Source of the DNA: a virus
Reading direction: 5' to 3' (one strand)
IMG/VR virus record: IMGVR_UViG_3300029893_000006
Coordinates: 1 to 63,417 of that record
DNA: 63,417 nt
The translations under genes were made by a program, and so were the position numbers. A model generated the notes under the pieces. The model saw nothing but the letters and a program-made list of their open reading frames with translations. It was not told the DNA's origin and did no database searches. Shown piece after piece: positions 1 through 63,417 of this stretch (position 1 is its first letter; each line of letters begins with the position of its first letter).

Positions 1-99
1 GGCACAACCAGGGTATCCGGGCTTATAGCCAACAGATTGCCCTTATCGTCCTTCCATTCCATCATGGCGTTACGGACCTTCTCAACGTTATCGGCATTG
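1..99. repeat. Terminal direct repeat, left copy
   Basis: These 99 bases are identical to 63319-63417. They lie inside the major capsid gene, whose reading frame continues without a break from the left end into the right copy. An exact repeat of this length is what a k-mer assembler leaves on a circular or terminally redundant molecule. I read it as an assembly overlap and not as a biological terminal repeat. The unique genome length is therefore 63,318 bp. Confidence 0.95.
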
Positions 100-611
100 A
101 GCTTCAAGGTAGACCCAAGTGAATCAGGATCACCGTAATTGCCAAACGTTGCGCTGTTGGTAGGACTATAGGGATGTGCTGCGCTACACAATGCCTTTCC
201 ATCCGGCCCGGGATAAAGGTCATTAAAAGCATTGTTGAACACGGAAGCAGCATAGAACTGCCTGGTATAATAAACAGTCCTCACCAGGATTCTTACCCGC
301 TTCTTGATCTCGCCGTATTGATCGTCCTCGGGAAGTTCTCTCTCGATTTCAAGGCCCTTGGAATATTTCTTATGCCGATAGGTCGCCAGGAAGCCTTTGT
401 GGATGTCCTCGTAGGCTACCTGACGCCCAGATTCATCCCAAGGGGTCATAAGGCCGAGAGAGCCGATTCCTAAGTGTTGCTCTATCGCCTTGGTTGAAGT
501 TTCCACATTAAAGATTACCAAAACATAGTCTTTGAGCTTTTTCTTATGTTTATCGAAGATTCTGCGTAAGATCGGCAGCATAAGCTCCTGCCAGTTTTCA
601 GAGAGCATCAT
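1..611 (-). CDS. Major capsid protein, exon 1, 5' part (crosses the contig junction)
   Basis: This is the N-terminal part of the major head subunit, resembling the Mu gpT-like capsid family. The start is the ATG at 611, preceded by GAGGTGA seven bases upstream. The frame is open to the window end and continues at 63318 down to 63081, giving 283 codons for exon 1. Visible family-like segments include LYPGPDGKALCSAAHPY and FGNYGDPDSLGSTL. The gene follows the decoration gene at 660-1388 and lies in the scaffold/portal operon. The last 24 residues are encoded in exon 2 (62737-62811) after a group I intron, for a 307-residue spliced protein. The family assignment rests on recalled sequence resemblance; the capsid role is well supported by gene order. 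Confidence 0.85.
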   Translation of the reverse strand, partial: MMLSENWQELMLPILRRIFDKHKKKLKDYVLVIFNVETSTKAIEQHLGIGSLGLMTPWDESGRQVAYEDIHKGFLATYRHKKYSKGLEIERELPEDDQYGEIKKRVRILVRTVYYTRQFYAASVFNNAFNDLYPGPDGKALCSAAHPYSPTNSATFGNYGDPDSLGSTLKLNADNVEKVRNAMMEWKDDKGNLLAISPDTLVV

Positions 612-2849: not shown

Positions 2850-4964
2850 CTAACTTTGTGGCAGAATTGAATTGATAACCTGCTCCTGCATGGCCGGAGA
2901 AAGTTTGGAGAATTGCTGTGCAAGCTGCGGATTAGCTCTAAAAACCTCCTCAATGTCAGCCACGGGATCATAACCTTCCCCGGCAGGCGGCATACCCTGC
3001 TGCTGAGGCAATCCGCTTGTTATGCTTCCGATCAAGCCTTCCAATGCCCCCAAACCGGCACCACCGCCACCGGCAGCAGGTTGGCCCCCAGGCTGTCCTC
3101 CGCCTGGTATTTGACCCTGCCCTTGTAGCATCATAGCCTGTTGCTGTGCCTTCTCTTGCATTTTCTCCAAAAGCTCTTTGAACGGCGGGAACTTGCCGTT
3201 ATCCAGCACATACCAGAATATCTCCTGATCAATGAGCTGCGCCATGTAAAGCTCCTTCGCCATGTCCATGTAAAAGATTCTGTCTGTAGGCAGGCTTGTT
3301 GAGACTTTGCACTGCGTATCGTACTGCGGACAGTAAATCTCGTAATGTTCGCCCTCTATCATACCGAACTCGCTGGCCCAACCGCCTCTTTCAAAATCTT
3401 GAAGAGGCATAGATTCATCAAAGTCATAAATATAAACTCTTTGCAACATTCCGGGATCAAAAATACCGTAAACGGTCTGAGCAACATCATCGCCCAAAAT
3501 ACGGTAAGCTCTTCTGCTGGTGTAAAACTTGGATATGAGATTATTCATATAGTTGCCGCAATCTTCATAAGCCGTGACCATGGCTTTTTCTTTGCTGCGG
3601 AGCCTTACCTGCGCCCTGGAAGCAAGTAAATCCAAAGCCCTGAAAGCTGTAACACTACCTGGTGTTCTTCCCTGGGAAATGTCAAACCGGCCTACCAGTG
3701 TTTCTGATACTTTCTGTAACCGTTCCATTTCGCCCTGGAGCGACGGAGGAACGCTTGTTCCCTGGAGGCGTTTTATGCCATTTATATCTTTGACCGGATA
3801 CCACATGCCCGGAAGAGTGCCGCGCTCCTTGACGTTCTTCTGCTGTTTTGGCGTCAGCGCAGATTCATTGTAAATCGTCTGCCCCATGGCATGATGAACG
3901 TGGCCCTCGATGATGATCTCTGCTGTTTTGTTTCTGATGATCTGCGGGTTTTTCAGGAAATACATTTCCCCGAAGCCCCAAATAGAATTTTCCCGTGGAT
4001 AACACTGCCGGAAAATGAACGGGAATTTAGTATTCTCACCAGGATCATGATAAACATAATTGGCATGTTTAAGGTATTGGCTGTTCCCCTCACCGGCCCA
4101 CCAGATCACATGAAGCCCAGGGCCCAAGTCCTCTTCGTCTTCGTCTAAGATTATGGGCCTGCCTTTGTACCATGTCTCCACAATAAGCGCCTGCTCTTCA
4201 CCGCTTTCCGAAGTCTCCATTGGTATTTCATCACCAATAAGCATATCGTAGCGGACAGTATCCGGCATGACTTTGCCGCCATGCTCAGGAAATTCTTCTT
4301 TGATGTATTCCAGCGTTCTCCAGAAAGCTTTATGTATCCTGCGGCCATCCTCTATGCTGTCACGGCAACGGGCATCGGGATAAACCACCTGCGGATGCGA
4401 CGCTATCCACCTTATATCGCCATGCCACCTATTGGGGCCTTTGCCGCCTGTCCAGGTCGGGTCCCAATAGATATGCCAGATCCCGGTTCCATAGAGAAAG
4501 AACCACCGGAGCCACTTTTCCCGCTCTACAGCGATCCGGTTTTTATATGCAATAAATTCTTTCAGGTCTGTCATTATAAGGGCGACTTCATCATCGCCTT
4601 TTTCTACCGGGTAGTCTACGATATCAATGTCCTGGCTGAACTCGGAAACAAAACCTTCTACAAGTGCGAAAGAAATATTCTCTACAGCGTTCGGCCTGGC
4701 CCTTTTCTGCGCCTGGGTGCGGAGAACCCTGCCGTCCTCACCTTTCAGGCTCCAGTGATCGCTCTTGTAGAGCTTATACATCTCCTCCATTTCTTCCATG
4801 TAGAACTGCTTGGCCATACGGTCTGCTTCGAACCAGTCATAGCACTTCTTCACGGCCTGGGTGCGCATCTGCTGGAGATCGAAAGGTATTTCTAAAACTG
4901 TCGTGGACAGATCTTCAGTTGTAGCTAAAGAAGGCGCCTCGGCATCATAATTGGTAAAGGCCAA
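2850..4964 (-). CDS. Portal protein (P22-like)
   Basis: The 704-residue length fits portals of P22-like short-tailed phages. The sequence is rich in aromatic residues in the first 250 positions (for example WLRWFFLYGTGIWHIYWDP, residues ~147-165). A Gln/Gly-rich C-terminal tail (residues ~610-680, GGGQPGGQPAAGGGG) could form the barrel or internal crown. The portal is the dodecameric ring at the capsid vertex through which DNA is packaged and ejected. Its position upstream of the scaffold and capsid genes supports the call. The assignment rests on length, composition and gene order. Confidence 0.85.
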   Translation of the reverse strand: MAFTNYDAEAPSLATTEDLSTTVLEIPFDLQQMRTQAVKKCYDWFEADRMAKQFYMEEMEEMYKLYKSDHWSLKGEDGRVLRTQAQKRARPNAVENISFALVEGFVSEFSQDIDIVDYPVEKGDDEVALIMTDLKEFIAYKNRIAVEREKWLRWFFLYGTGIWHIYWDPTWTGGKGPNRWHGDIRWIASHPQVVYPDARCRDSIEDGRRIHKAFWRTLEYIKEEFPEHGGKVMPDTVRYDMLIGDEIPMETSESGEEQALIVETWYKGRPIILDEDEEDLGPGLHVIWWAGEGNSQYLKHANYVYHDPGENTKFPFIFRQCYPRENSIWGFGEMYFLKNPQIIRNKTAEIIIEGHVHHAMGQTIYNESALTPKQQKNVKERGTLPGMWYPVKDINGIKRLQGTSVPPSLQGEMERLQKVSETLVGRFDISQGRTPGSVTAFRALDLLASRAQVRLRSKEKAMVTAYEDCGNYMNNLISKFYTSRRAYRILGDDVAQTVYGIFDPGMLQRVYIYDFDESMPLQDFERGGWASEFGMIEGEHYEIYCPQYDTQCKVSTSLPTDRIFYMDMAKELYMAQLIDQEIFWYVLDNGKFPPFKELLEKMQEKAQQQAMMLQGQGQIPGGGQPGGQPAAGGGGAGLGALEGLIGSITSGLPQQQGMPPAGEGYDPVADIEEVFRANPQLAQQFSKLSPAMQEQVINSILPQS

Positions 4965-5004
4965 TATTAATCACCACCTTTCAACTCTGCCACCAAATAA
5001 AAAA

Positions 5005-5066
5005 TGGGGAGACAGAGAACACAAAAACCGCTGTTTATGCGGTTCTTCTGCTCTCGGCCTCCCCAA
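5005..5066 (-). terminator. Large hairpin with terminator-like core before the portal gene
   Basis: The core AACCGC / GCGGTT is followed by TTTTTGTG on the minus strand. Outer arms (GGGGAG and CTCCCC) can extend the structure. It lies in the 150-base gap between the 96-residue gene (5115) and the portal start, where no reading frame was supported. Confidence 0.65.
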
Positions 5067-5114
5067 GACGTTTCATAACGCTATGGAAAACGGTATTTAG
5101 TTTTAAGGGTAGCT

Positions 5115-5405
5115 CTAGAGGATTTTGATCTGCCCGACTACTTCTTCCAACTCAATGCAGATATTTAATAAACTATCATTGGCTTCAAATAATTCGTTCC
5201 GTGTAAAATCAAGAACACTTGTTATTTTGTTTTCTGCCCCGGCCTTTTCACAATCTTCGCTTTCCAGCCTTGGGACAAACAAAATCCCGTGCAGCCTGTA
5301 TATAAGCTCCTTTGTTCTCATAACTTCACGACCTAAATCTTTTATGCTGGCATCAAGTAAGGCTGGTGCTTTCATTTCTGTCTTAGCAACACACGCTTCC
5401 GGCAT
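5115..5405 (-). CDS. Hypothetical protein (Cys/Glu-containing, helical)
   Basis: I do not recognise this 96-residue protein. It is mainly helical and mildly acidic, with hydrophobic heptads near the C-terminus (NDSLLNICIELEEVVGQI), suggesting a short coiled coil. The start ATG has an excellent site (AAAGGAGGGGAG) and follows the upstream gene at 5406-5588 directly, so the two are probably translated together. Confidence 0.7.
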   Translation of the reverse strand: MPEACVAKTEMKAPALLDASIKDLGREVMRTKELIYRLHGILFVPRLESEDCEKAGAENKITSVLDFTRNELFEANDSLLNICIELEEVVGQIKIL

Positions 5406-5588
5406 CTATCTCCCCTCCTTTCCCTCCGGAATATTGAAACGGACCTTTTCATAAACGATCTTTGCTTCTTCCGGCAGGCTGTTCCTTACTTGCAGGTCCG
5501 TTATGATCCCGTGACCCAGCTCCCGTATTTTCTGAATCAATCTTTTCTCGTTAGGGTGGAGGAGCATGGCTTCTTTTTCCTGGCTCAT
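5406..5588 (-). CDS. Hypothetical small protein
   Basis: This 60-residue protein is not recognised. It starts MSQEKEAMLLHPNEKRLI and contains a predicted amphipathic helix. The AAAGGAGTGACCCT sequence upstream gives a plausible ribosome site. It lies between the DHH phosphoesterase gene and the 96-residue gene, with its stop adjoining the next start. Confidence 0.65.
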   Translation of the reverse strand: MSQEKEAMLLHPNEKRLIQKIRELGHGIITDLQVRNSLPEEAKIVYEKVRFNIPEGKEGR

Positions 5589-5606
5589 AGGGTCACTCCT
5601 TTAACC

Positions 5607-6494
5607 TTAAGCTATCTTCTTAAACGGCAGCTCCTTGCAGTTAAAACCAGCCGCCTGCTTATGGCCGCCACCGCCGTATTTCTCCGCTATCTCGGATACA
5701 TCAATACCTTTGACAGTGTATAGAGACACGGTAAAAACGTTCCCATCGAATACAAAGGGCATCATAATATCGTATTTATTTGCTAAATCACTAAAAAACT
5801 GGCTGGAAACACGGCCCACGTTACAGGCAATACATTTATGCCCCTCAAACTCAGTTTCAAAAGCATAGGCTTTTAGCATCTCCTGATTATGAACATGCTG
5901 ATATGCCAGGACTACCTCGCCTGTGGCTTCAATAGGCTTGGTGTCTTTCATGGCATCTTCCCATATCTCAGATGTCGGATCGGTATCGTAAACAAGCATA
6001 CCTGCGCAGAACTTAGCCGTTCTTTCCTCAAATACCCACGCCCATATATCACGATCACCAATCAACCGGGTAAACATCGGAACTTTGGTTATCATTGCAT
6101 CTTCAAACTTCTTCTGTTTTCCCGGCCTACCTCTGTCGGTCAGCTCGAACAAATAAATGTAAGTGAGGACGCAACCGGCTACTCCTACTTTTTGGATTCC
6201 ACGAATTTGCGATGTATCAAAATCTTTGTAGCGTTTTATGGCCGATTCGTGGTGATCTATCCATACTACATTATTGGTTATTTGAAGAAGCTCTGTCATC
6301 TGCTCCGGCAGAATAGAGAAGTCCACGATGTAGACCAGCTCGTTTTTCCTGATTTTATCCATCGGGAATGTGTCTTTATAGTCAATCTCGAATAGCTCCG
6401 GTTCTTCTCCGTATGGATCGTCTCTATACGCCCACTTGTTTACCCAATAACCGGCGCATCTGCCGTCAAGATCGTTATGGTGAAAGCATTTCAC
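5607..6494 (-). CDS. DHH/DHHA1-family phosphoesterase
   Basis: This 295-residue protein has the DHH superfamily signatures: HNDLDG at residues 6-11, YIVDFS near 55-60, the namesake WIDHHES near 78-84, and the DHHA1 glycine loop GGGGHKQAAGF near residues 277-287. Family members are Mn-dependent phosphodiesterases such as nanoRNases/oligoribonucleases and RecJ-like exonucleases. A phage copy could recycle short oligonucleotides after host RNA or DNA breakdown; that role is inferred. The start is GTG at 6494 behind GGGGGAG. Unusually, it sits in the packaging operon and not with replication genes. Confidence 0.85.
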   Translation of the reverse strand: MKCFHHNDLDGRCAGYWVNKWAYRDDPYGEEPELFEIDYKDTFPMDKIRKNELVYIVDFSILPEQMTELLQITNNVVWIDHHESAIKRYKDFDTSQIRGIQKVGVAGCVLTYIYLFELTDRGRPGKQKKFEDAMITKVPMFTRLIGDRDIWAWVFEERTAKFCAGMLVYDTDPTSEIWEDAMKDTKPIEATGEVVLAYQHVHNQEMLKAYAFETEFEGHKCIACNVGRVSSQFFSDLANKYDIMMPFVFDGNVFTVSLYTVKGIDVSEIAEKYGGGGHKQAAGFNCKELPFKKIA

Positions 6495-6581
6495 TACTTT
6501 ACTCCCCCTGTTGCTTTTTTATTGTTCTTACTCCATTTGTTTCGGCTCTGGCCAAACCATTTCGGCCAGGGCCTGTCCAAT

Positions 6582-6869
6582 TTAAAAGTGAATTTTATTA
6601 TCCTTCAATACCTGATACATACAGTGTGATAAACGAGATATTGTAGTATCATCCTGCTCAAAAGCACAATGGTCAAATATGCCGTGAAACAATTCATGCA
6701 AAAATGCTTCATTTGTGCAATCTGGAGACATACCCTTCTTGATTCTAATTTCCTGTTTGGAATAGACGATACAACCTTTCATATTCCAATCATCTTCAGA
6801 CACTTCACCAATGTCAACAAATTTTACATCGTACACAATCCCGCCAATTTTAACCTTGTCGGGTATCAT
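6582..6869 (-). CDS. Putative zinc metalloprotease (HExxH, ImmA/SprT-like)
   Basis: This 95-residue protein contains HELFHGIF near residues 58-65, a classic HExxH zinc-protease motif, preceded by NEAFL, in the arrangement of small ImmA/IrrE- or SprT-like phage proteins. The start ATG overlaps the stop of the upstream PGDYG-like gene (ATGA), so translation is coupled. ImmA-type proteases cleave repressors and SprT-type ones act on protein-DNA crosslinks; which applies here is unknown. At under 100 residues it is a minimal domain. Confidence 0.7.
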
Positions 6870-7405
6870 CGATATAGCTCCACCTCTTCCACTTCCACGC
6901 CCTTTTCGCCCAAGACACCCAGCACATTCAGCTTCATATACTGGCCCTGGCTCATATACTCAATTTCGGGGGGTAAAAACTCAGCAGGAATAATAAATTT
7001 TCCTTTGTTTTCTTCGGCCTGGACAGTCGGAAGCTCCTTTGCCTCCTGCTGCTCATCTACCGGCTCATAAGTTTTCTCAAAAACATCCGGCTTGCAGGGA
7101 TATTGCTCACCGTTTACTCCTGTAATTATCCAGTCCCCCGGACTTGCCGTCATTGTTCCTTCCAGGGTTTCAATTTGGGCCTCTTTGTCTGTCTGGTAAG
7201 CCTCAACAATTACCGGCTTTTTACGAAACTTCTTAACAATAACCGGTTCATCTAAAGGCTTCTTCTCTTCCTTTTCCGGCTCTTCCGTCTTTACTGGCGG
7301 CTGCATAGCATTAACTGCACTGGCCTGTTTCCTGGCTTGGTGACACGCCTGCAGTTCTCCCATACTCTCATGCGTTTTCCCGCAAGCACTACACTTATAC
7401 GACAT
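6866..7405 (-). CDS. Zinc-finger protein with PGDYG-like domain
   Basis: This is a 179-residue protein. Residues 1-20 form a short zinc-finger-like segment ([18 protein letters not shown]). After a Pro/Glu linker comes [11 protein letters not shown] and a block with [20 protein letters not shown] (residues ~105-125), which matches the pattern of the phage PGDYG domain of unknown function. It overlaps the next gene by 4 bases. No catalytic residues are evident. Confidence 0.65.
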
Positions 7406-7421
7406 TTGCCTCCACGCTCCT

Positions 7422-7613
7422 TTAATGTAAACTCGGATCGCTGTCCATGGGTATCAGGCTGAACTCGATTAAAGCCTTGCATAACGGACAGACTATTTTC
7501 AGACTGGCTTTAAAGATGAAAACCATCCCGCATATAGGACAGCATATCGTGAATTGGCCCTCTTCTTCTTCGTCTACCCCGCCATAGATGTTAACTTGAA
7601 CGGGCCTTATCAT
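7422..7613 (-). CDS. Small zinc-ribbon protein
   Basis: This 63-residue protein has two Cys pairs, CPIC near residue 25 and CPLC near residue 42, spaced as in a zinc ribbon. Its start overlaps the end of the next upstream gene by 23 bases. It is probably a nucleic-acid or protein binding domain; the specific role is unknown. Confidence 0.6.
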
Positions 7614-7911
7614 CAGCTATGATACTCCATTCTTCATCGGTTACATCATCATCTTCGCCTGTTTCCGGATCTTCGTCAAGCATGGCCCGGATCTCTTCAT
7701 CGGTCATAACCGGGACAGGATCGTCTATTAACCATTCAGGACAGCAAAATTCCCTGGGAGTGATAATGTCCATATAAACCTCTTTCCCGTAAAGAGTAAT
7801 GGGATGAAGTTTGCCGCAAACCGAATAGCCTTCTTCTCCAATAACGGCATCCATCATGGCGCTGTCATGCGTCCACCATCGGCAGTTATCGCAGCATTTC
7901 TTATCATTCAT
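7591..7911 (-). CDS. Cys-rich acidic hypothetical protein
   Basis: I place the start at the ATG at 7911 (MNDKKCCDNCRWW), which has GAGGGGG six bases upstream; an earlier in-frame start at 7965 lacks a good site. The resulting 106-residue protein has a Cys cluster (CCDNCRWW, a CGKLHP motif, FCCPEW) likely to bind a metal, followed by a very acidic tail. Similar CxNCxxW proteins are common in Firmicute phages and have no known function. Confidence 0.6.
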   Translation of the reverse strand: MNDKKCCDNCRWWTHDSAMMDAVIGEEGYSVCGKLHPITLYGKEVYMDIITPREFCCPEWLIDDPVPVMTDEEIRAMLDEDPETGEDDDVTDEEWSIIADDKARSS

Positions 7912-8457: not shown

Positions 8458-8790
8458 TTACTCAAGAAATATGCGTATTCTATAAGTATTGGCCCGATGA
8501 AGCTTTTTTGAACCCATTGTTGGAACATATCTTTCCTGCTCATAGCATCCGTTTGCTCTCACATAGAAATACCTGTTCTTATCCCCCAAAAGCCTTTCTA
8601 TAGCCTGGAAAAGCCTTATCGGTGTATGGTGAAGCAGGATTACTTCTTTGTCTGGGGAATAGCCGTCAAATTTTATGCCGAAAACTATCCCCGCTATCTG
8701 CTCCTTAAAATAATCAATAAACTGTTTCTCAAATTCGTTGGAAGGTTTGTAGTTTTCGACAGGGACAATACTTTCAGCATTATGATTCAT
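8458..8790 (-). CDS. Hypothetical protein
   Basis: This 110-residue protein is not recognised. It is of mixed alpha/beta composition with several aromatic residues and has no motif or signal. It follows the 138-residue gene without a gap (stop at 8791, start at 8790), indicating translational coupling. Confidence 0.6.
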   Translation of the reverse strand: MNHNAESIVPVENYKPSNEFEKQFIDYFKEQIAGIVFGIKFDGYSPDKEVILLHHTPIRLFQAIERLLGDKNRYFYVRANGCYEQERYVPTMGSKKLHRANTYRIRIFLE

Positions 8791-13317: not shown

Positions 13318-13700
13318 AAATTATTAGGAAAACCAAAATTGTTGAATGCAAGGACATTTCATTATACTTCGAATTTAAAAATATGCCAGGAGCCGGTTTT
13401 GCCTTCCCTTGCGATGAGCAAGGTAATGTTGACACCAAAAACCTTCCACCAGAAGCACTTGGCAATTACAAAAAATGCTTATCTGGTGAGCATGATGTAA
13501 TTTGCAAAGGTGTTCGTATACTCCGTTGGAATGTTCGTGAACCCGCCGTTGGCCTTTGCGAATGCGGAAAAGAAGTCGAACTTTCCCATTTCACGAATAC
13601 CTGCGAATGCGGAGCTGACTACAACTTTGCAGGCCAGCGTCTTGCTCCCCGGGAACAATGGGGAGAGGAAACAGGGGAGCATTGGACTGAGTGCTACTAA
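13314..13700 (+). CDS. Hypothetical protein with zinc-ribbon C-terminus
   Basis: This 128-residue protein starts in overlap with the upstream membrane peptide. Residues ~85-105 hold two Cys pairs (LCECGKEVEL ... TCECGADY), a zinc-ribbon arrangement. The N-terminal half is beta-rich. It is a possible nucleic-acid binder or metal-stabilised scaffold; the family is unknown. Confidence 0.65.
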   Translation: MKIIRKTKIVECKDISLYFEFKNMPGAGFAFPCDEQGNVDTKNLPPEALGNYKKCLSGEHDVICKGVRILRWNVREPAVGLCECGKEVELSHFTNTCECGADYNFAGQRLAPREQWGEETGEHWTECY

Positions 13701-13716
13701 AAAGGGCAAGGGACTG

Positions 13717-13757
13717 TCCCGTGAAAGCCGGGACCAGGGGGAAATTCTTTCCCCTGC
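13717..13757 (+). other. Hairpins between plus-strand genes
   Basis: Two consecutive stem-loops, one with arms GTCCCG/CCGGGAC and one with AGGGGGAA/TTCCCCT, lie just upstream of the ribosome site of the 13792 gene. There is no T-run, so they are more likely processing or translation elements than terminators. Confidence 0.5.
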
Positions 13758-13791
13758 TCCGCTCAACCTACGATGAAAGGAGGTCTGACCC

Positions 13792-19368: not shown

Positions 19369-20230
19369 CCTTATCCCTCTCTTTCATCTTGTTTTCAAGA
19401 ATAACTACCTGCTTCCGGAGCTTTGATGGTGACAGGATATTTGCTCTCCAAAAACTATCATCCATGCAAAAATCTATTATCGCTTTGATCTCGTTCCAGG
19501 TATAGCCCTTAGTTCCCCCGGGAGGTCCCAGCCTGTGAAGCCTGTCCATTTCCAGTGCCCACTTCTGCATTAGGCTGTCGTCCTCTTTATCATCAGGAAC
19601 CTTTGCCCTGGGGTTATTTCCCATGATCATACCTCTTAAATAATTCGCACCCCTATAGGCAGCACTCTCCTTCTTAAATACAGGCTCTTCTGGTGTTTTC
19701 TCACCGTCCGAACCAGGGAGTTCGGACAAGAGATCTTTAGTACTTTTCTTTTCTTTTTCTTTTCTTTTATTTACTTTACTTTCCTTTACTTTGTTATTTT
19801 CTGTTATAACTTTGTTATTTTCTGTTATAACAGTGTTATCTGATGCCGACTTTTCGGACTTTCCCCATCTTAACGCCATCCCCTTCTTGCCCGCCTTAGA
19901 TTTCTTTTCCCTTGAAGCATGAAAGGCTGCCTTACGCCTACGAAGGCTCTCACTCCAGAACTTTTCCCCGTCGCTAACAAAGAGTTGCTCTGTTATACAA
20001 GTGTTAATAACATTTTGTAACAGTGTTATATCAATGTTATAACCAGCCGCTATACCTTTAATTTTTGAATGGTAAAGGCAGGTCTCATTAGATTCAAACA
20101 TCATTTCAACCAACGCCCAATATAAACCATAACCTTCCCATCCATGTTCTGCTCTGAACATAAGTATTTTTTCATCATTTCTTGCATTGCTATCATGGCT
20201 AAAGTAATAAACATCCTTATTGTTAGCCAT
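19286..20230 (-). CDS. Replication initiator (DUF4373 / DnaD-like)
   Basis: This is a 314-residue protein. The N-terminus matches the DUF4373 (Lin1244/Lin1753) pattern: YYFSHDSNARNDEKILMFRA, then GWEGYGLYWALVEMMFES, a winged-helix DNA-binding domain. A Lys-rich middle contains the seven-residue repeat VITENNK twice. The C-terminal third (YTWNEIKAIIDFC) resembles DnaD-type tails that recruit the helicase loader. The gene itself holds candidate origin repeats at 19800-20043. Confidence 0.8.
   Translation of the reverse strand: MANNKDVYYFSHDSNARNDEKILMFRAEHGWEGYGLYWALVEMMFESNETCLYHSKIKGIAAGYNIDITLLQNVINTCITEQLFVSDGEKFWSESLRRRKAAFHASREKKSKAGKKGMALRWGKSEKSASDNTVITENNKVITENNKVKESKVNKRKEKEKKSTKDLLSELPGSDGEKTPEEPVFKKESAAYRGANYLRGMIMGNNPRAKVPDDKEDDSLMQKWALEMDRLHRLGPPGGTKGYTWNEIKAIIDFCMDDSFWRANILSPSKLRKQVVILENKMKERDKVGKAGSAPKPGYRPSEHDWSKEPKDRI
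19796..20043. other. Candidate replication origin (iteron-like repeats inside the initiator gene)
   Basis: GTTATAAC, a perfect 8-bp palindrome, occurs at 19803-19810, 19824-19831 and 20036-20043. AACAGTGTTAT occurs at 19829-19839 and 20019-20029. A 21-base AT-rich unit is repeated in tandem at about 19790-19831. Phage origins often lie within the initiator gene. The repeats also encode a short peptide repeat, so the origin role is inferred. Confidence 0.4.
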
Positions 20231-20687
20231 TTATTACCCTCCACTCCATAAACTCTTTGACCGTCTTATCTCTTTTTTGTCGATTGCACGTTCGGCAAGA
20301 GGTAACTAAATTTTCTAGCTCATTAGTGCCATTTTTTGATAATGGAATTATATGGTCAACTTCTAAATTTCCGCCTTTTTTATTACAATAAAGGCATGTA
20401 TAATTATCTCTTTCAAAAACTATCCTTGATATTTCTTTCCACAATGGCAAGTTAAAATTATACATTCTTTTTTTAAGGAATTTGGTTAGAAACTCATTTA
20501 CTTCGTCATATATATCATGTTCATAATTAACTCTTTGTTTGGAGCACCAGTTAACAAATGATTCTTTAAACATGCCAATTTTTTTATATAATTCTTTATG
20601 ATTTTCTAAATCTTCTATAACTCCATCTTTTAAAAGAGATACATACAACCGATAAAAACCAGGATATTTATCCTGTTCTCGTGCCAT
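20223..20687 (-). CDS. HNH endonuclease
   Basis: This 154-residue protein has a C-terminal HNH domain: YTCLYCNKKGGNLEVDHIIP (residues ~96-115), NELENLVTSCRTCNRQK after it, with two CxxC pairs holding zinc and the DH / N / Cys-rich catalytic core. The N-terminal 90 residues are helical and unlike standard HNH proteins, perhaps a targeting domain. It is probably a free-standing homing endonuclease, inserted between the initiator and the GreA-like gene; it overlaps the initiator by 8 bases. Confidence 0.9.
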   Translation of the reverse strand: MAREQDKYPGFYRLYVSLLKDGVIEDLENHKELYKKIGMFKESFVNWCSKQRVNYEHDIYDEVNEFLTKFLKKRMYNFNLPLWKEISRIVFERDNYTCLYCNKKGGNLEVDHIIPLSKNGTNELENLVTSCRTCNRQKRDKTVKEFMEWRVING

Positions 20688-28138: not shown

Positions 28139-29362
28139 TCAGAAAAACGACCTTTCCACTTTTTTAGCTGCAGGTCTTTGCGTCGACTTTTCCGTATCTC
28201 CAAAGAGTGTGGACTGTGCAGGCACTCCTGCTGGCTCCTTCTGCTGTTTTCGAGCCTGCTCGTCTTTACGCCGCTGTTCAAGCTCTTTTTGGTATTGCTC
28301 CATACCGTCGCTTATTTTGTCGTAGTCAACCTCTTTTTCTTTTTTTCTGAAGTCTCTGGCCTGCGTTGCGGAAGCCTCCCCTGCTTGCTGCCGTCTTGCC
28401 ACTTCTTTTTTAAGATTCACCAGGAGTTGCTCTTTGTCCAGGTCGGGTTTGTTTAAAGTAGCCTTTCTTTTGGCTTCGGGGACAGAAAGGATATCCCAAA
28501 CTCGATGTAGTTCATTATCTATGGGGTCAGTCTCAGTTTCAGCTTTTCCCTCAGTCTCTGCATCCATTACCTTTTCTTTGTTGTTATTGATTAGGCTGGC
28601 AGGATAAAGATCATCAGGGGCTTCATCGTAGTCAGGTTCGGTTATTGTTACCTCTTCGGGTTTAATCCCGGTTTTCTCTTCGAGAAGGAACTGCGCAGGT
28701 GTTTTTCGTGAAGCAGCAAGTATCTGTTCCAACCTTACATGCTCATTGGCCAGATCCATGACGTAAACAACTTTTTTTCTGCCTTCAACCTGGACCTCTT
28801 TGGGCCGGATAATCAGCTTTAGAGGTATCCAGGCTATTTTCCCGCCAGTCAAAGTTCTGACAAAATCTATAGCACTGTTGAGATTTACTATGGAGTGATA
28901 ACTGGAAGTATCAATCTGCCAGATCCCAAGGCCGGGAACTTTATACAGCAGAAATTGGAGAGTGCCTACGGGACGGCAGTGTTTCTTTTCAGCCCATTCG
29001 CACTCCATAGGGTCACAGTCAATTTCAAGCATTTCGCCTGTTTCACGGTCTATTTGTGTTGCCTTTTCGCCGTCGCCTTTACAGAGAAGGCCGGTGCTGG
29101 AACCGTAACGCCGGTAAAACTGGCTAAAAAACTTAGTTGGATCTTCCACCGGAAACATAACATCAAGCTCCCGGGGCTTTTCGCCGTAGACCTCTTTAAA
29201 TGCCTGGGCCGCAAGCTCGGAAGTTTGTTCGTCTGCTTTGCAAACAAAGTAATCCACGGCGGCAGGGTATTCTACCCCTTTTGCATTTTCCTTCTTTATC
29301 CCCAGGCGTATCTTGCCGATTCTGGGGAGCCTTCTTACTTCGCTCAAACCTTTGATGGTCAA
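28139..29362 (-). CDS. Gp3-like / recombination directionality factor-like protein
   Basis: The TTG at 29362 behind AGGAGG is preferred, giving 407 residues. The N-terminal 240 residues match the pattern of the phage Gp3-like (often annotated RDF or hydrolase/metal-binding) family: LPRIGKIRLGIKKENAKGVE, AVDYFVC, a Cys/His group (CDPMECEWAEKKHCRPVGTL) and RPKEVQVEGRK. The C-terminal 150 residues are charged and disordered. Proteins of this family lie next to phage recombination genes; direct proof of an RDF role is lacking. Confidence 0.7.
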   Translation of the reverse strand: MTIKGLSEVRRLPRIGKIRLGIKKENAKGVEYPAAVDYFVCKADEQTSELAAQAFKEVYGEKPRELDVMFPVEDPTKFFSQFYRRYGSSTGLLCKGDGEKATQIDRETGEMLEIDCDPMECEWAEKKHCRPVGTLQFLLYKVPGLGIWQIDTSSYHSIVNLNSAIDFVRTLTGGKIAWIPLKLIIRPKEVQVEGRKKVVYVMDLANEHVRLEQILAASRKTPAQFLLEEKTGIKPEEVTITEPDYDEAPDDLYPASLINNNKEKVMDAETEGKAETETDPIDNELHRVWDILSVPEAKRKATLNKPDLDKEQLLVNLKKEVARRQQAGEASATQARDFRKKEKEVDYDKISDGMEQYQKELEQRRKDEQARKQQKEPAGVPAQSTLFGDTEKSTQRPAAKKVERSFF

Positions 29363-29402
29363 TTTAGTATTCCTCCTTTCACTTTTTAGGCAGGGGCCGG
29401 GA

Positions 29403-29783
29403 TTAAGCAAAAAGAACGGCGTTATCCAGTTTTATATGGCATGAATCGCACACTGTAGTTAAATTATCTAGATCATCTGTTCCTCCAAGTCTTACTGGTA
29501 CTAAATGGTGAATACAGAGGCGTTTTTGGTTTGTTCCGCAAATGGTGCACTGGTAATTGTCTCTTTTTAGAACTTCCTCTCGTATTTCTTCTGAGAGAGT
29601 AACATAGGGGTAAGCCCTACCCCCAAGATAGCGATGATTTCTCCTTCCCGTTGCTCTCCATATATTTGCACAACGTAAGCTGCAAAAACGTCCCCAGCCT
29701 CTCCGAACTTCTTTAGCTTCAACCATAAAGTGCTTACTGCACAATTCGCATATTCTTTTGGTGTTCTTCAAGTGTTTTCCCAT
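29403..29783 (-). CDS. HNH endonuclease with N-terminal zinc finger
   Basis: The start at 29783 (MGKHLKNTKRICELC) has GGCGGTGATT upstream. The 126-residue product has an N-terminal zinc finger (CELCSKHF ... CSLRC) and a C-terminal HNH nuclease: YQCTICGTNQKRLCIHHLVP, LDNLTTVCDSCH. It is a typical compact phage homing endonuclease. It lies just upstream of the Gp3-like gene. Confidence 0.9.
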   Translation of the reverse strand: MGKHLKNTKRICELCSKHFMVEAKEVRRGWGRFCSLRCANIWRATGRRNHRYLGGRAYPYVTLSEEIREEVLKRDNYQCTICGTNQKRLCIHHLVPVRLGGTDDLDNLTTVCDSCHIKLDNAVLFA

Positions 29784-29806
29784 AATCACCGCCCCCGCCA
29801 AAACTT

Positions 29807-33811: not shown

Positions 33812-34894
33812 ATGTCCGGCCACATACAGAAAAAAGGCAATAATTATTATATTGTAATTGAACAAGGTTACGATAATGATGGTAAAAGGCTTCCCGCTAA
33901 ATGGATCAGTGTACGCAAAGAGTTAGGTCTTAACCGGCCAGCAAAGTCACCAGAAGCAAAAGCTCTCTTATATCGTCTTATGGTAGAAAAACAAAAAGGC
34001 GATATTATCATACCTGCTGATATTAGCCTTGAGGAATTCTTAACAACCTGGTTAGAAAAATACAGTAAAATGAAATCTCTTGCCAAGTCAACAATAATTC
34101 AGTATGAATTTGCCCTGAAGCACATTATTCCAGTTATGGGCAGGACAAAACTGCCCAATGTTACTGGCCTTATGATCCAGAACTTCCTTACCGAAAAAAG
34201 AAAACATTATTCGGCCAATTCAGTCCATGCCATTTGCAAGGTTTTCACGCTGGGATTCAAATATGCAGTAAAGTGGAGATATATCGCCAAAAATCCGATG
34301 GATGATGTAGTCAAGCCTACTGTTCCTCGACCTGCAATACATTTTTGGACTGAGGAAGAAGCAGAAAAGTTTCTATCTGCCGTAGAAGATCATCAGTACT
34401 CTTTGCTGTTCCTTCTGGCCCTTGCCACGGGAATGAGAAAAATGGAAATATTGCGGCTGAAACGGAAGTATGTCAACTTTAATAACAACACCATAACTGT
34501 AACGGATGCCAAAACTGCTTCCGGCTGGCGCACCATTGACGTTACGCCTGTTATAATGAAAAAACTCGAACAATATAAATCCAAAAGCAATGATGAATAT
34601 ATTTTTACCACGGCAAAAGGCAAGCCTTTAATCCCGCAACTAATCAACAAAATCATGGACAGAGCAATCAAAAAGGCCGGAGTAAAGAAAATTTCTTTTC
34701 ACGGCCTGCGGCATACCTTTGCCACCCTGATGCTTTCAAAAGGTGTTAATCCTGTTGATGTTGCAGACATGCTGGGCCATGCAAATGCTTCACAACTTTG
34801 GAATACTTATGCACATGTTATAGGCAAAAATAGAAAAGAGGCAGCCCGTAAACTGGACAACCTCTTTGAAAACTTTGGAGAGAAAACGGAATGA
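33812..34894 (+). CDS. int: Tyrosine integrase
   Basis: This is a 360-residue protein. The N-terminal ~70 residues resemble an arm-binding domain (KKGNNYYIVIEQGYDNDGKR), followed by a SAM-like core-binding domain (LAKSTIIQYEFALKHIIPVM). The catalytic domain has Arg209 (ATGMRKME), His297-x-x-Arg300 (HGLRHTF), His323 (LGHAN) and nucleophile Tyr333 (WNTYAHV). It integrates and, with an excisionase, excises the phage. It is co-transcribed with the repressor and ends at a terminator. Confidence 0.95.
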   Translation: MSGHIQKKGNNYYIVIEQGYDNDGKRLPAKWISVRKELGLNRPAKSPEAKALLYRLMVEKQKGDIIIPADISLEEFLTTWLEKYSKMKSLAKSTIIQYEFALKHIIPVMGRTKLPNVTGLMIQNFLTEKRKHYSANSVHAICKVFTLGFKYAVKWRYIAKNPMDDVVKPTVPRPAIHFWTEEEAEKFLSAVEDHQYSLLFLLALATGMRKMEILRLKRKYVNFNNNTITVTDAKTASGWRTIDVTPVIMKKLEQYKSKSNDEYIFTTAKGKPLIPQLINKIMDRAIKKAGVKKISFHGLRHTFATLMLSKGVNPVDVADMLGHANASQLWNTYAHVIGKNRKEAARKLDNLFENFGEKTE

Positions 34895-56728: not shown

Positions 56729-57739
56729 CTATTGAATTAAGTACTTTTTGTGTGTAGTCCTTTTCCTTTCATCTGTTACCTGAGCATAAACCTGCGTAGT
56801 AACAGGAGATTCATGCCCCAACAATTGCTGTAAAACTGCCAGTTCTGCCCCGTTATTTAAAGTAAGCGTAGCAAAAGTATGCCTGAGCACGTGCGGATGG
56901 ACATTCTTTTCTATTCCGGCTCGAGCGGCTATGGCTTTTATTTCTCTTTGGATGCCTCTTCTAGATAATCTTCTGTACGGTTTTCTTTCGGTTACAAACA
57001 ATGCTGTGCAGTTATCACTTCTGGAGTTTAAGTATTTCTGTAAATGATAAGCTGCCCTAGTAGAAAGATAAACTTCTCGTTCTTTGCTTCCCTTGCCCAA
57101 TACCCTAATAGAAAGATTTTGCCAGTCAACATCTTCTTTATTTAGCTGGTACACTTCAGTAAGCCTGCCACCAGTAGCATAGAATACTTCAATAAATGCC
57201 CTCTCTCTCGGTGTTTTGCAGTGTTCTCTCAACATTTCCAGTTCCCCGATAGTTAGAGATTTCGGCATCCTTTTTTCGGTTTTAGGCGGTTTTATTTTTC
57301 GTGTAGGATCACGTTGAATTATCTCTTCTTCCGTAAGCCAACCGAAAAAACTTTTTAAGACAAACAGCTTCTTTGCCAAAGAACTTGGTTTCAAGTGGTT
57401 AAACTTACTTAAGAACATCCGAATATCATTTGTCTCAATTTCGTCAACTGGTTTTGGCATACTTTCAGCAAATATTCTTAACTCGATACCATAACCGCTC
57501 AACGTGTTGCGAGAAAACCCTTCTATCTTCTTAGCAGACAAAAAAGACTTCATTTTCTCAATAATATCTGGATGGCCTGCTTCTGGTTTTTTAGGTGCAA
57601 TATCGTATAATGATAGAATAGCCGACAACCTTGCCTCCAGTTTGTTTCTATCTACAGGGCCAAACAGTTCTTCTACTTCGTCTATTAGCTGAGAAACTAA
57701 AAAATAGCCGGTATCCTGGCTATTCTCAGTGTGTTTCAT
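56729..57739 (-). CDS. Tyrosine recombinase (XerC/D-like) within the tail module
   Basis: The start at 57739 (MKHTENSQDTGYF) follows AGGAGG. The 336-residue product has an N-terminal SAM-like domain and a catalytic domain with Arg192 (ATGGRLTE), His283-x-x-Arg286 (HVLRHTFA), His309 (LLGHES) and Tyr318 (QVYAQVT). It has the Xer-like HxLRHTFAT and GHES forms, differs clearly from the lysogeny integrase, and is not near the switch. It lies within a cassette between two parts of a tail gene, suggesting a role in tail variation or cassette mobility. Confidence 0.92.
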   Translation of the reverse strand: MKHTENSQDTGYFLVSQLIDEVEELFGPVDRNKLEARLSAILSLYDIAPKKPEAGHPDIIEKMKSFLSAKKIEGFSRNTLSGYGIELRIFAESMPKPVDEIETNDIRMFLSKFNHLKPSSLAKKLFVLKSFFGWLTEEEIIQRDPTRKIKPPKTEKRMPKSLTIGELEMLREHCKTPRERAFIEVFYATGGRLTEVYQLNKEDVDWQNLSIRVLGKGSKEREVYLSTRAAYHLQKYLNSRSDNCTALFVTERKPYRRLSRRGIQREIKAIAARAGIEKNVHPHVLRHTFATLTLNNGAELAVLQQLLGHESPVTTQVYAQVTDERKRTTHKKYLIQ

Positions 57740-57797
57740 ACAGTTGCCTCCTGTGGGCAAATTGTTAAACTGCTACACTTCTTAGACCAGATGTGTA

Positions 57798-62736: not shown

Positions 62737-62811
62737 TTAGGGGTTAATTGCCCCCCAAATGAAGGTTGGCTCGTCCCAGCCAAAGCTGAACCTATTAACA
62801 ACCTTATACCT
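62737..62811 (-). CDS. Major capsid protein, exon 2
   Basis: This exon encodes the final 24 capsid residues (RYKVVNRFSFGWDEP, then TFIWGAINP and a TAA stop). It is out of reach of the exon 1 frame unless the 269-nt intron is removed, because an in-frame stop lies just upstream and unspliced translation ends at 63042. Joined to exon 1 after GAA GTG GGT it reads EVG-RYKVV, the C-terminus expected for this capsid family. Confidence 0.85.
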   Translation of the reverse strand, partial: RYKVVNRFSFGWDEPTFIWGAINP

Positions 62812-63080
62812 CATTTGTTATGCACAGGCTCTTTATCCTATGCTCCCCGTCTTTCGTCGGGGTATCGGAGCACCTTTTCACCCTCGTCTTTACGTTAGGG
62901 TGGCGGGGACTCGTGGAGGGATTATATTCCGTTAGCGGTTTCACCCTCTGCTCTCTGCGTGTGTCAATAACGTTACTTATTGACTTCCCTTCGGGTCGGC
63001 ATAGCTCTGTGCCTTAGCTTTCCCGTTTTTTCCCCGCTGTTTTATGCTGCAAGTTTCCCTGCAACCGGGCAAGTATGTTT
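62812..63080 (-). ncRNA. Group I self-splicing intron in the capsid gene
   Basis: This 269-nt intron has no reading frame. P1 pairs exon UGGGU with intron GCCCG around the U.G splice site at 63081/63080. P10 pairs UACUU of the P1 loop with exon 2 AGGUA. The intron ends in G (62812). The core reads P3 GCGGGG/CCCCGC (63037-63032, 62908-62903), P4 CGGG/CCCG, P6 AGGGA/UCCCU, P7 CGAG/CUCCG with the bulged C, P8 CACCCU/AGGGUG and P9 CCCCG/CGGGG. No homing endonuclease is encoded inside it. Pairings were found by eye; the subgroup is not assigned. Confidence 0.88.
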
Positions 63081-63417
63081 ACCCACTTCTGTATCGAAGT
63101 TCTCCCTATCCTGCTCCAGCTTGGCAACCCTGCGGTCAAACCAGTTAGCATACATTTTAGCCCTTTCCCTGTCCATCATAAACCAGGCATTAGGATTGGT
63201 CAGGAACGGCCACTCAATCACATCTAAAGCACCTTTCCAGATGTTAACGTTGTTATCGCTGGTATCCGGTTCTTTGTCTGTATCAGCAATAACCATAGCA
63301 GGTTTACGTAACTTGGGAGGCACAACCAGGGTATCCGGGCTTATAGCCAACAGATTGCCCTTATCGTCCTTCCATTCCATCATGGCGTTACGGACCTTCT
63401 CAACGTTATCGGCATTG
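63081..63417 (-). CDS. Major capsid protein, exon 1, 3' part
   Basis: This continues the reading frame from 1-611 across the junction (63319-63417 repeat 1-99). It encodes residues such as MVIADTDKEPDTSDNNVNIW and LTNPNAWFMMDRERAKMYAN, and ends at DTEVG at 63081 where the intron begins. Without splicing, translation would continue 12 residues (KHTCPVAGKLAA) into intron sequence and stop at 63042. Confidence 0.88.
63319..63417. repeat. Terminal direct repeat, right copy
   Basis: It is identical to bases 1-99, which closes the genome as a circle of 63,318 bp. See the left copy. Confidence 0.95.

Follow-up and report, generated by a model that had tools for sequence, protein, structure and literature searches.

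How does the major capsid protein of this phage end, when its reading frame closes before a C-terminal segment that is encoded further along the same strand? The window, which is the whole stretch of 63,417 nucleotides analyzed, corresponds to IMG/VR record IMGVR_UViG_3300029893_000006, positions 1 to 63,417. Its first 99 bases (1-99) are identical to its last 99 (63319-63417), and because of these identical ends the contig probably closes on itself, being circular or derived from a circularly permuted genome, so that the capsid gene would run from 63417 into the window start. The gene lies on the minus strand across the contig ends, from 611 to 100 and then from 63417 to 63081, followed by an intron and a second exon:

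1..611, minus strand: capsid exon 1, 5' part; the ATG at 611 gives the N-terminus
63081..63417, minus strand: capsid exon 1, 3' part; 63319-63417 repeats 1-99; Pfam PF10124 and PF25209
62812..63080, minus strand: group I intron, 269 nt, without ORF, terminal G at 62812
62737..62811, minus strand: capsid exon 2, 24 codons plus stop; contiguous with exon 1 in 11 relatives
Exon-2-encoded peptide: FSFGWDEPTFIWGAINP

The unspliced capsid frame reads ...RENFDTEVG, continues with KHTCPVAGKLAA and stops at 63042-63044, which is 12 residues past EVG, as an earlier note on this DNA had described, and gives a product of 295 aa. Exon 2 (62811..62737), which that note had placed 269 nt further on, does start 269 nt after the G codon of EVG, on the same strand and in phase, and encodes RYKVVNRFSFGWDEPTFIWGAINP plus a stop codon. 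Removal of the intron leads to a capsid protein of 307 aa that matches the Mu-like gpT family PF10124 with 69.6 bits and Phage_capsid_4 (PF25209) with 41.2 bits, both above the Pfam cut-offs. The last 24 residues of the capsid would be made only if the intron is spliced out. Automatic annotation would, as had been anticipated, end the capsid wrongly, with an ORF that finishes in GKLAA and an intron that is missed at the Rfam gathering threshold.

The proposed junction was compared with 11 capsid relatives from viral contigs (40-70% identity, 299-302 aa); a search of genome contigs with the capsid protein gave no match. All 11 relatives are uninterrupted and carry the codons flanking the junction next to each other, for example GAAGTGGCT directly followed by AAGTATAAA or GAAGTCGGG directly followed by GCCTATAAA, where the window has GAAGTGGGT before and AGGTATAAG after the intron. 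The spliced protein is colinear with these intron-less relatives at the exact junction codon, its C-terminal segment aligning in all of them, and the splice junction named in the note thus coincides with an exact empty site in 11 relatives. When exon 2 was compared with relatives at the codon level, differences were mostly synonymous in eight of nine comparisons (pN 0.23-0.35 versus pS 0.75-1.0), the weaker ninth being that with locus L004 (pN 0.43 versus pS 0.77). Exon 1 shows a codon-level conservation much like that of exon 2, and this pattern indicates that exon 2 is very likely translated.

Within the 269 nt, the following RNA elements were assigned, with the source of most assignments in brackets:

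63066..63085, minus strand: P1, exon UGGGU 63085-63081 with guide GCCCG 63070-63066, U.G at the 5' splice site (fold and read by hand)
63071..63075, minus strand: P10 guide UACUU, pairing with exon-2 AGGUA 62811-62807 (read by hand)
63046..63065, minus strand: P2 hairpin with GAAA tetraloop (fold)
63042..63044, minus strand: in-frame UAA, intron nt 37-39 (12 codons in), between P2 and P3
63031..63037, minus strand: P3 5' strand GCGGGGA, pairing with 3' strand UCCCCGC 62909-62903 (fold; pairs covary in relatives)
62992..63025, minus strand: P4 (CGGG/CCCG) and P5 (P4 from the covariance model, P5 read from the sequence)
62963..62984, minus strand: P6 hairpin GUCAAUAA/UUAUUGAC (fold)
62949..62955, minus strand: P7 5' strand, G, bulged A, GAGCA, pairing with UGCUCC 62872-62867 (covariance model and read by hand)
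62916..62948, minus strand: P7.1 (GAGGG/CCCUC) enclosing P7.1a (CCG/CGG) (fold)
62879..62902, minus strand: P8 CACCCUAACGUAAAGACGAGGGUG (fold)
62845..62862, minus strand: P9 hairpin with GAAA loop (fold)
62822..62843, minus strand: P9.2 hairpin GCAUAGG/CCUGUGC (fold)

The minimum-energy fold of the intron amounted to -94.7 kcal/mol, compared to a mean of -66.5 kcal/mol for dinucleotide shuffles (z = -5.58), and none of 200 shuffles was as low. Without constraints, folding draws P1, P2, P3, part of P4, P6, P7.1/P7.1a, P8, P9, and P9.2. The P3-P8 and P4-P6 domains with the P3/P7 pseudoknot characteristic of group I introns are present, as are the P7 bulge with the conserved G-C guanosine site (GAGAGCA/UGCUCC), the U.G pair at the 5' splice site in P1, the terminal G, and P10 (UACUU/AGGUA). 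P1, P10, and the terminal G thus lie where the note had put them, and the P3, P4, P6, bulged P7, P8, and P9 that it had drawn were recovered from the fold, the covariance model, and hand reading; the hairpin after P7 is a nested one, P7.1 enclosing P7.1a. This insert is situated between P7 and P3, as in IA introns, and we take it to indicate an IA1/IA3-like member of subgroup IA. A GCUAAG...UAUGC motif inside P5 resembles an 11-nt GAAA tetraloop receptor and, as P2 and P9 both end in GAAA loops, suggests tertiary contacts of the usual kind, L2-P8 and L9-P5.

The note had proposed a search with the Rfam group I model. This model, RF00028, gives a match at 62845-63090 on the minus strand, with E = 8.7e-6 on 601 nt or 9.1e-4 on the whole window, and its 30.1 bits are below the curated cut-off of 50. 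The gathering cut-off is a threshold of the model and not a structural feature, and clear relatives of the intron fail it too. With a score below threshold, RF00028 alone is unable to settle the case.

A 20-nt motif, reaching from P7.1 to the 3' strand of P3 and common to the window and its relatives, was used for gathering related introns. It returned about 100 viral contigs and, in slightly extended form, 39 genome contigs, mostly of Bacillales. The matches to a 17-nt P7.1 pattern in viral contigs were all in sequence that is apparently coding. From 37 aligned relatives, the window excluded, a covariance model (R1) was built on a hand-written structure. In this alignment, 94.5% of cells are paired and 28 of 40 pairs show two-sided changes; cells with two-sided changes number 271, compared to 75 in shuffles, and the support is destroyed when the partner strand is slid. 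R1 gives a single match to the window, with 132.5 bits and E = 6.5e-35. As the relatives had been selected by the motif, the score across P7.1 to P3' is partly obtained by construction; the part contributed by P4, P6, P7, and P8 is free of this circularity, and one part of the window P5 is unmatched to R1's three pairs. At two P7 pairs that are C-G and U-A in each of the 37 relatives, the window carries A-U and C-G, which are compensatory changes, and the guanosine-site G-C pair is unchanged. J8/7 reads AAAAGG, in contrast to the AAGAUA of the introns that Rfam recognizes here, and AAAAGG is common in the R1 set.

The empty sites in 11 relatives and the covariance model built without the window support the reading that the major capsid gene is interrupted by a group I intron that is complete and lacks an ORF. 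We are nearly certain that this element is an IA-type group I ribozyme in the capsid transcript, predicted to splice at the junction described. Guanosine, bound at the P7 G-C pair that neighbors the bulged A, would first attack behind the U of UGGGU. The end of exon 1 thus released would attack just behind the terminal G (62812) while exon 2 is held by P10, so that GGU would be joined to AGG and the 24-residue C-terminus restored. The UAA that lies between P2 and P3 would halt ribosomes on unspliced RNA and so keep them out of the ribozyme core. The sequence shows the anatomy, the family membership, the exact junction against empty sites, and the codon-level constraint on exon 2; catalysis and its efficiency are predictions, as is the role of the intron as a neutral passenger without regulatory function.

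Splicing might instead be partial and regulated, with capsids of 307 and 295 aa both made or with output tuned by splicing. The unspliced frame ends cleanly after 12 intron codons, which would suit such a scheme, but the scheme is improbable, since no sequence feature indicating regulation was seen and since introns of this sort often contain an in-frame stop, which is read as aiding folding and splicing (PMC3984707). Also, the capsid intron of mycobacteriophage LittleE is presumed to be very efficiently spliced (PMC3706429). We consider it very unlikely that the intron has decayed and that the phage, having lost splicing, uses the 295-aa unspliced protein ending in KHTCPVAGKLAA. The sub-threshold Rfam score would agree with decay, but the core helices are all intact, as is the terminal G, P7 carries a compensatory change, exon 2 is in frame with conserved codons, and the C-terminal segment past the junction is present in 11 of 11 relatives. 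Translational hopping of ribosomes over the 269 nt, without RNA splicing, would account for in-frame coding on either side of a non-coding gap, but is rejected as hardly conceivable for a gap that has the full anatomy of a group I intron and whose family is supported by covariation.

The intron belongs to a large set in phages and Bacillus. R1 matches all 39 genome loci and nearly all of the approximately 100 viral ones, and when RF00028 was run at R1 places it reported none of 31 (8 with an E limit of 1; 16 plus 7 with a limit of 0.1); some of these loci did give RF00028 matches to other introns, which indicates that the searches were working. BLASTN located the P8 core in Staphylococcus phage Twort, Lactococcus phage Tuc2009, and other phages; 20 nt are identical in Twort and Tuc2009, and all 24 nt of P8 in six viral contigs. 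Weak similarity to the intron was also seen in jumbo phages, in genes for RNA polymerase and gyrase. A further support for the intron reading is the gyrA gene of Bacillus phage AR9, which is annotated in three pieces, and two R1 matches fall in the two gaps between three GyrA-like frames, the first of which ends in GKQ, the second reading YHPHG...DAHGK, and the third starting with NFGSVYGD; RF00028 detects neither of these two introns. In bajarodcaudo virus 1 (L188), whose crAss-like capsid gene is split, an R1 match at 1418-1588 lies just before an annotated capsid piece. One viral contig (L046) has six R1 group I matches within about 4.7 kb (3037-7699). In the 39 genome contigs with R1 introns, mostly from Bacillales (L146-L184), several introns carry an ORF (MNRGYAGFYKG...) between P3' and P7', and, among those inspected, L148, L153, and L155 have a host gene that by eye resembles a ribonucleotide reductase of the cobalamin type; the literature was searched for such introns in cobalamin-dependent reductase genes, and no report was found.

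Compared to known systems, the introns of AR9/PBS1 gyrA, of jumbo Aeromonas/Yersinia phages, and of Bacillales ribonucleotide reductase genes are recognized by the same model R1 (110-168 bits). The AR9-gyrA-type introns share with that of the window the nested P7.1/P7.1a, an AAAA-type J8/7, and a similar 3' end (AUAACA..UG). They differ in their host genes, in an ORF in P8 in some of them, and in P7, which is mostly GCAUA/UAUGC or GCGUA/UACGC compared to GAGCA/UGCUC in the window. Introns recognized by RF00028 have the same overall fold, whereas the window scores below their cut-off. Group I introns in capsid genes were already known, and the window intron adds a member to this kind. Tuc2009 mp4, a major head protein gene, has one (PMC3706429), which is annotated in its own sequence record and, like that of the window, combines this location with the identical 20-nt P8 core. 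Unlike the window intron it carries orf38 and interrupts a different capsid, and R1 gave no match to it in the stretch searched. The LittleE intron, probably of group I, also interrupts a capsid gene, and RT-PCR and protein sequencing have demonstrated its splicing (PMC3706429), but it is 819 bp long, has an endonuclease ORF, and is located near the processed N-terminus. Within the R1 set, another Phage_capsid_4 gene (L047; similar contigs exist) has an intron (8563-8746), but at a different site, before most of the coding sequence. As far as we searched, the capsid lineage and the insertion site of the window intron are new.

The intron has no homing endonuclease ORF, its sense strand lacking any frame of at least 60 aa, and GIY-YIG and HNH_3 domains were not found. 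Two free-standing HNH genes, possible homing nucleases, are located far from the intron at 20223-20687 and 29403-29801 (-). The window also encodes two different tyrosine recombinases (33812-34894, plus strand; 56729-57760, minus strand) and a Gp3-like recombination directionality factor (28139-29410). A twister-sister ribozyme match (RF02681, 42.4 bits, cut-off 34) at 13699-13775 on the plus strand is situated apparently between two plus-strand frames, the neighboring called genes being mostly on the minus strand.

For this phage, the analysis corrects the capsid protein, at an intron site that is empty in all relatives found. Beyond this gene, a large and coherent IA-type subclass, with a GCRUA-type P7, an AAAA-type J8/7, and a nested P7.1/P7.1a as its proposed traits, may well exist in phages of many hosts and in Bacillales chromosomes while being hardly seen by the Rfam group I model; if so, split genes of phages and bacteria, those for capsids included, would in many cases be mis-annotated today. 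It has been suggested that phage IA introns are heterogeneous and that Rfam and GISSD have gaps (PMC11878797), and RF00028 served as the seed model of one recent database of group I introns (PMC11835236). The more useful by-product of this work is the blind spot of Rfam, an intron set with covariation support that was missed at all 31 places tested, and this set, together with the motif, offers concrete material for repairing the gaps in Rfam and GISSD.
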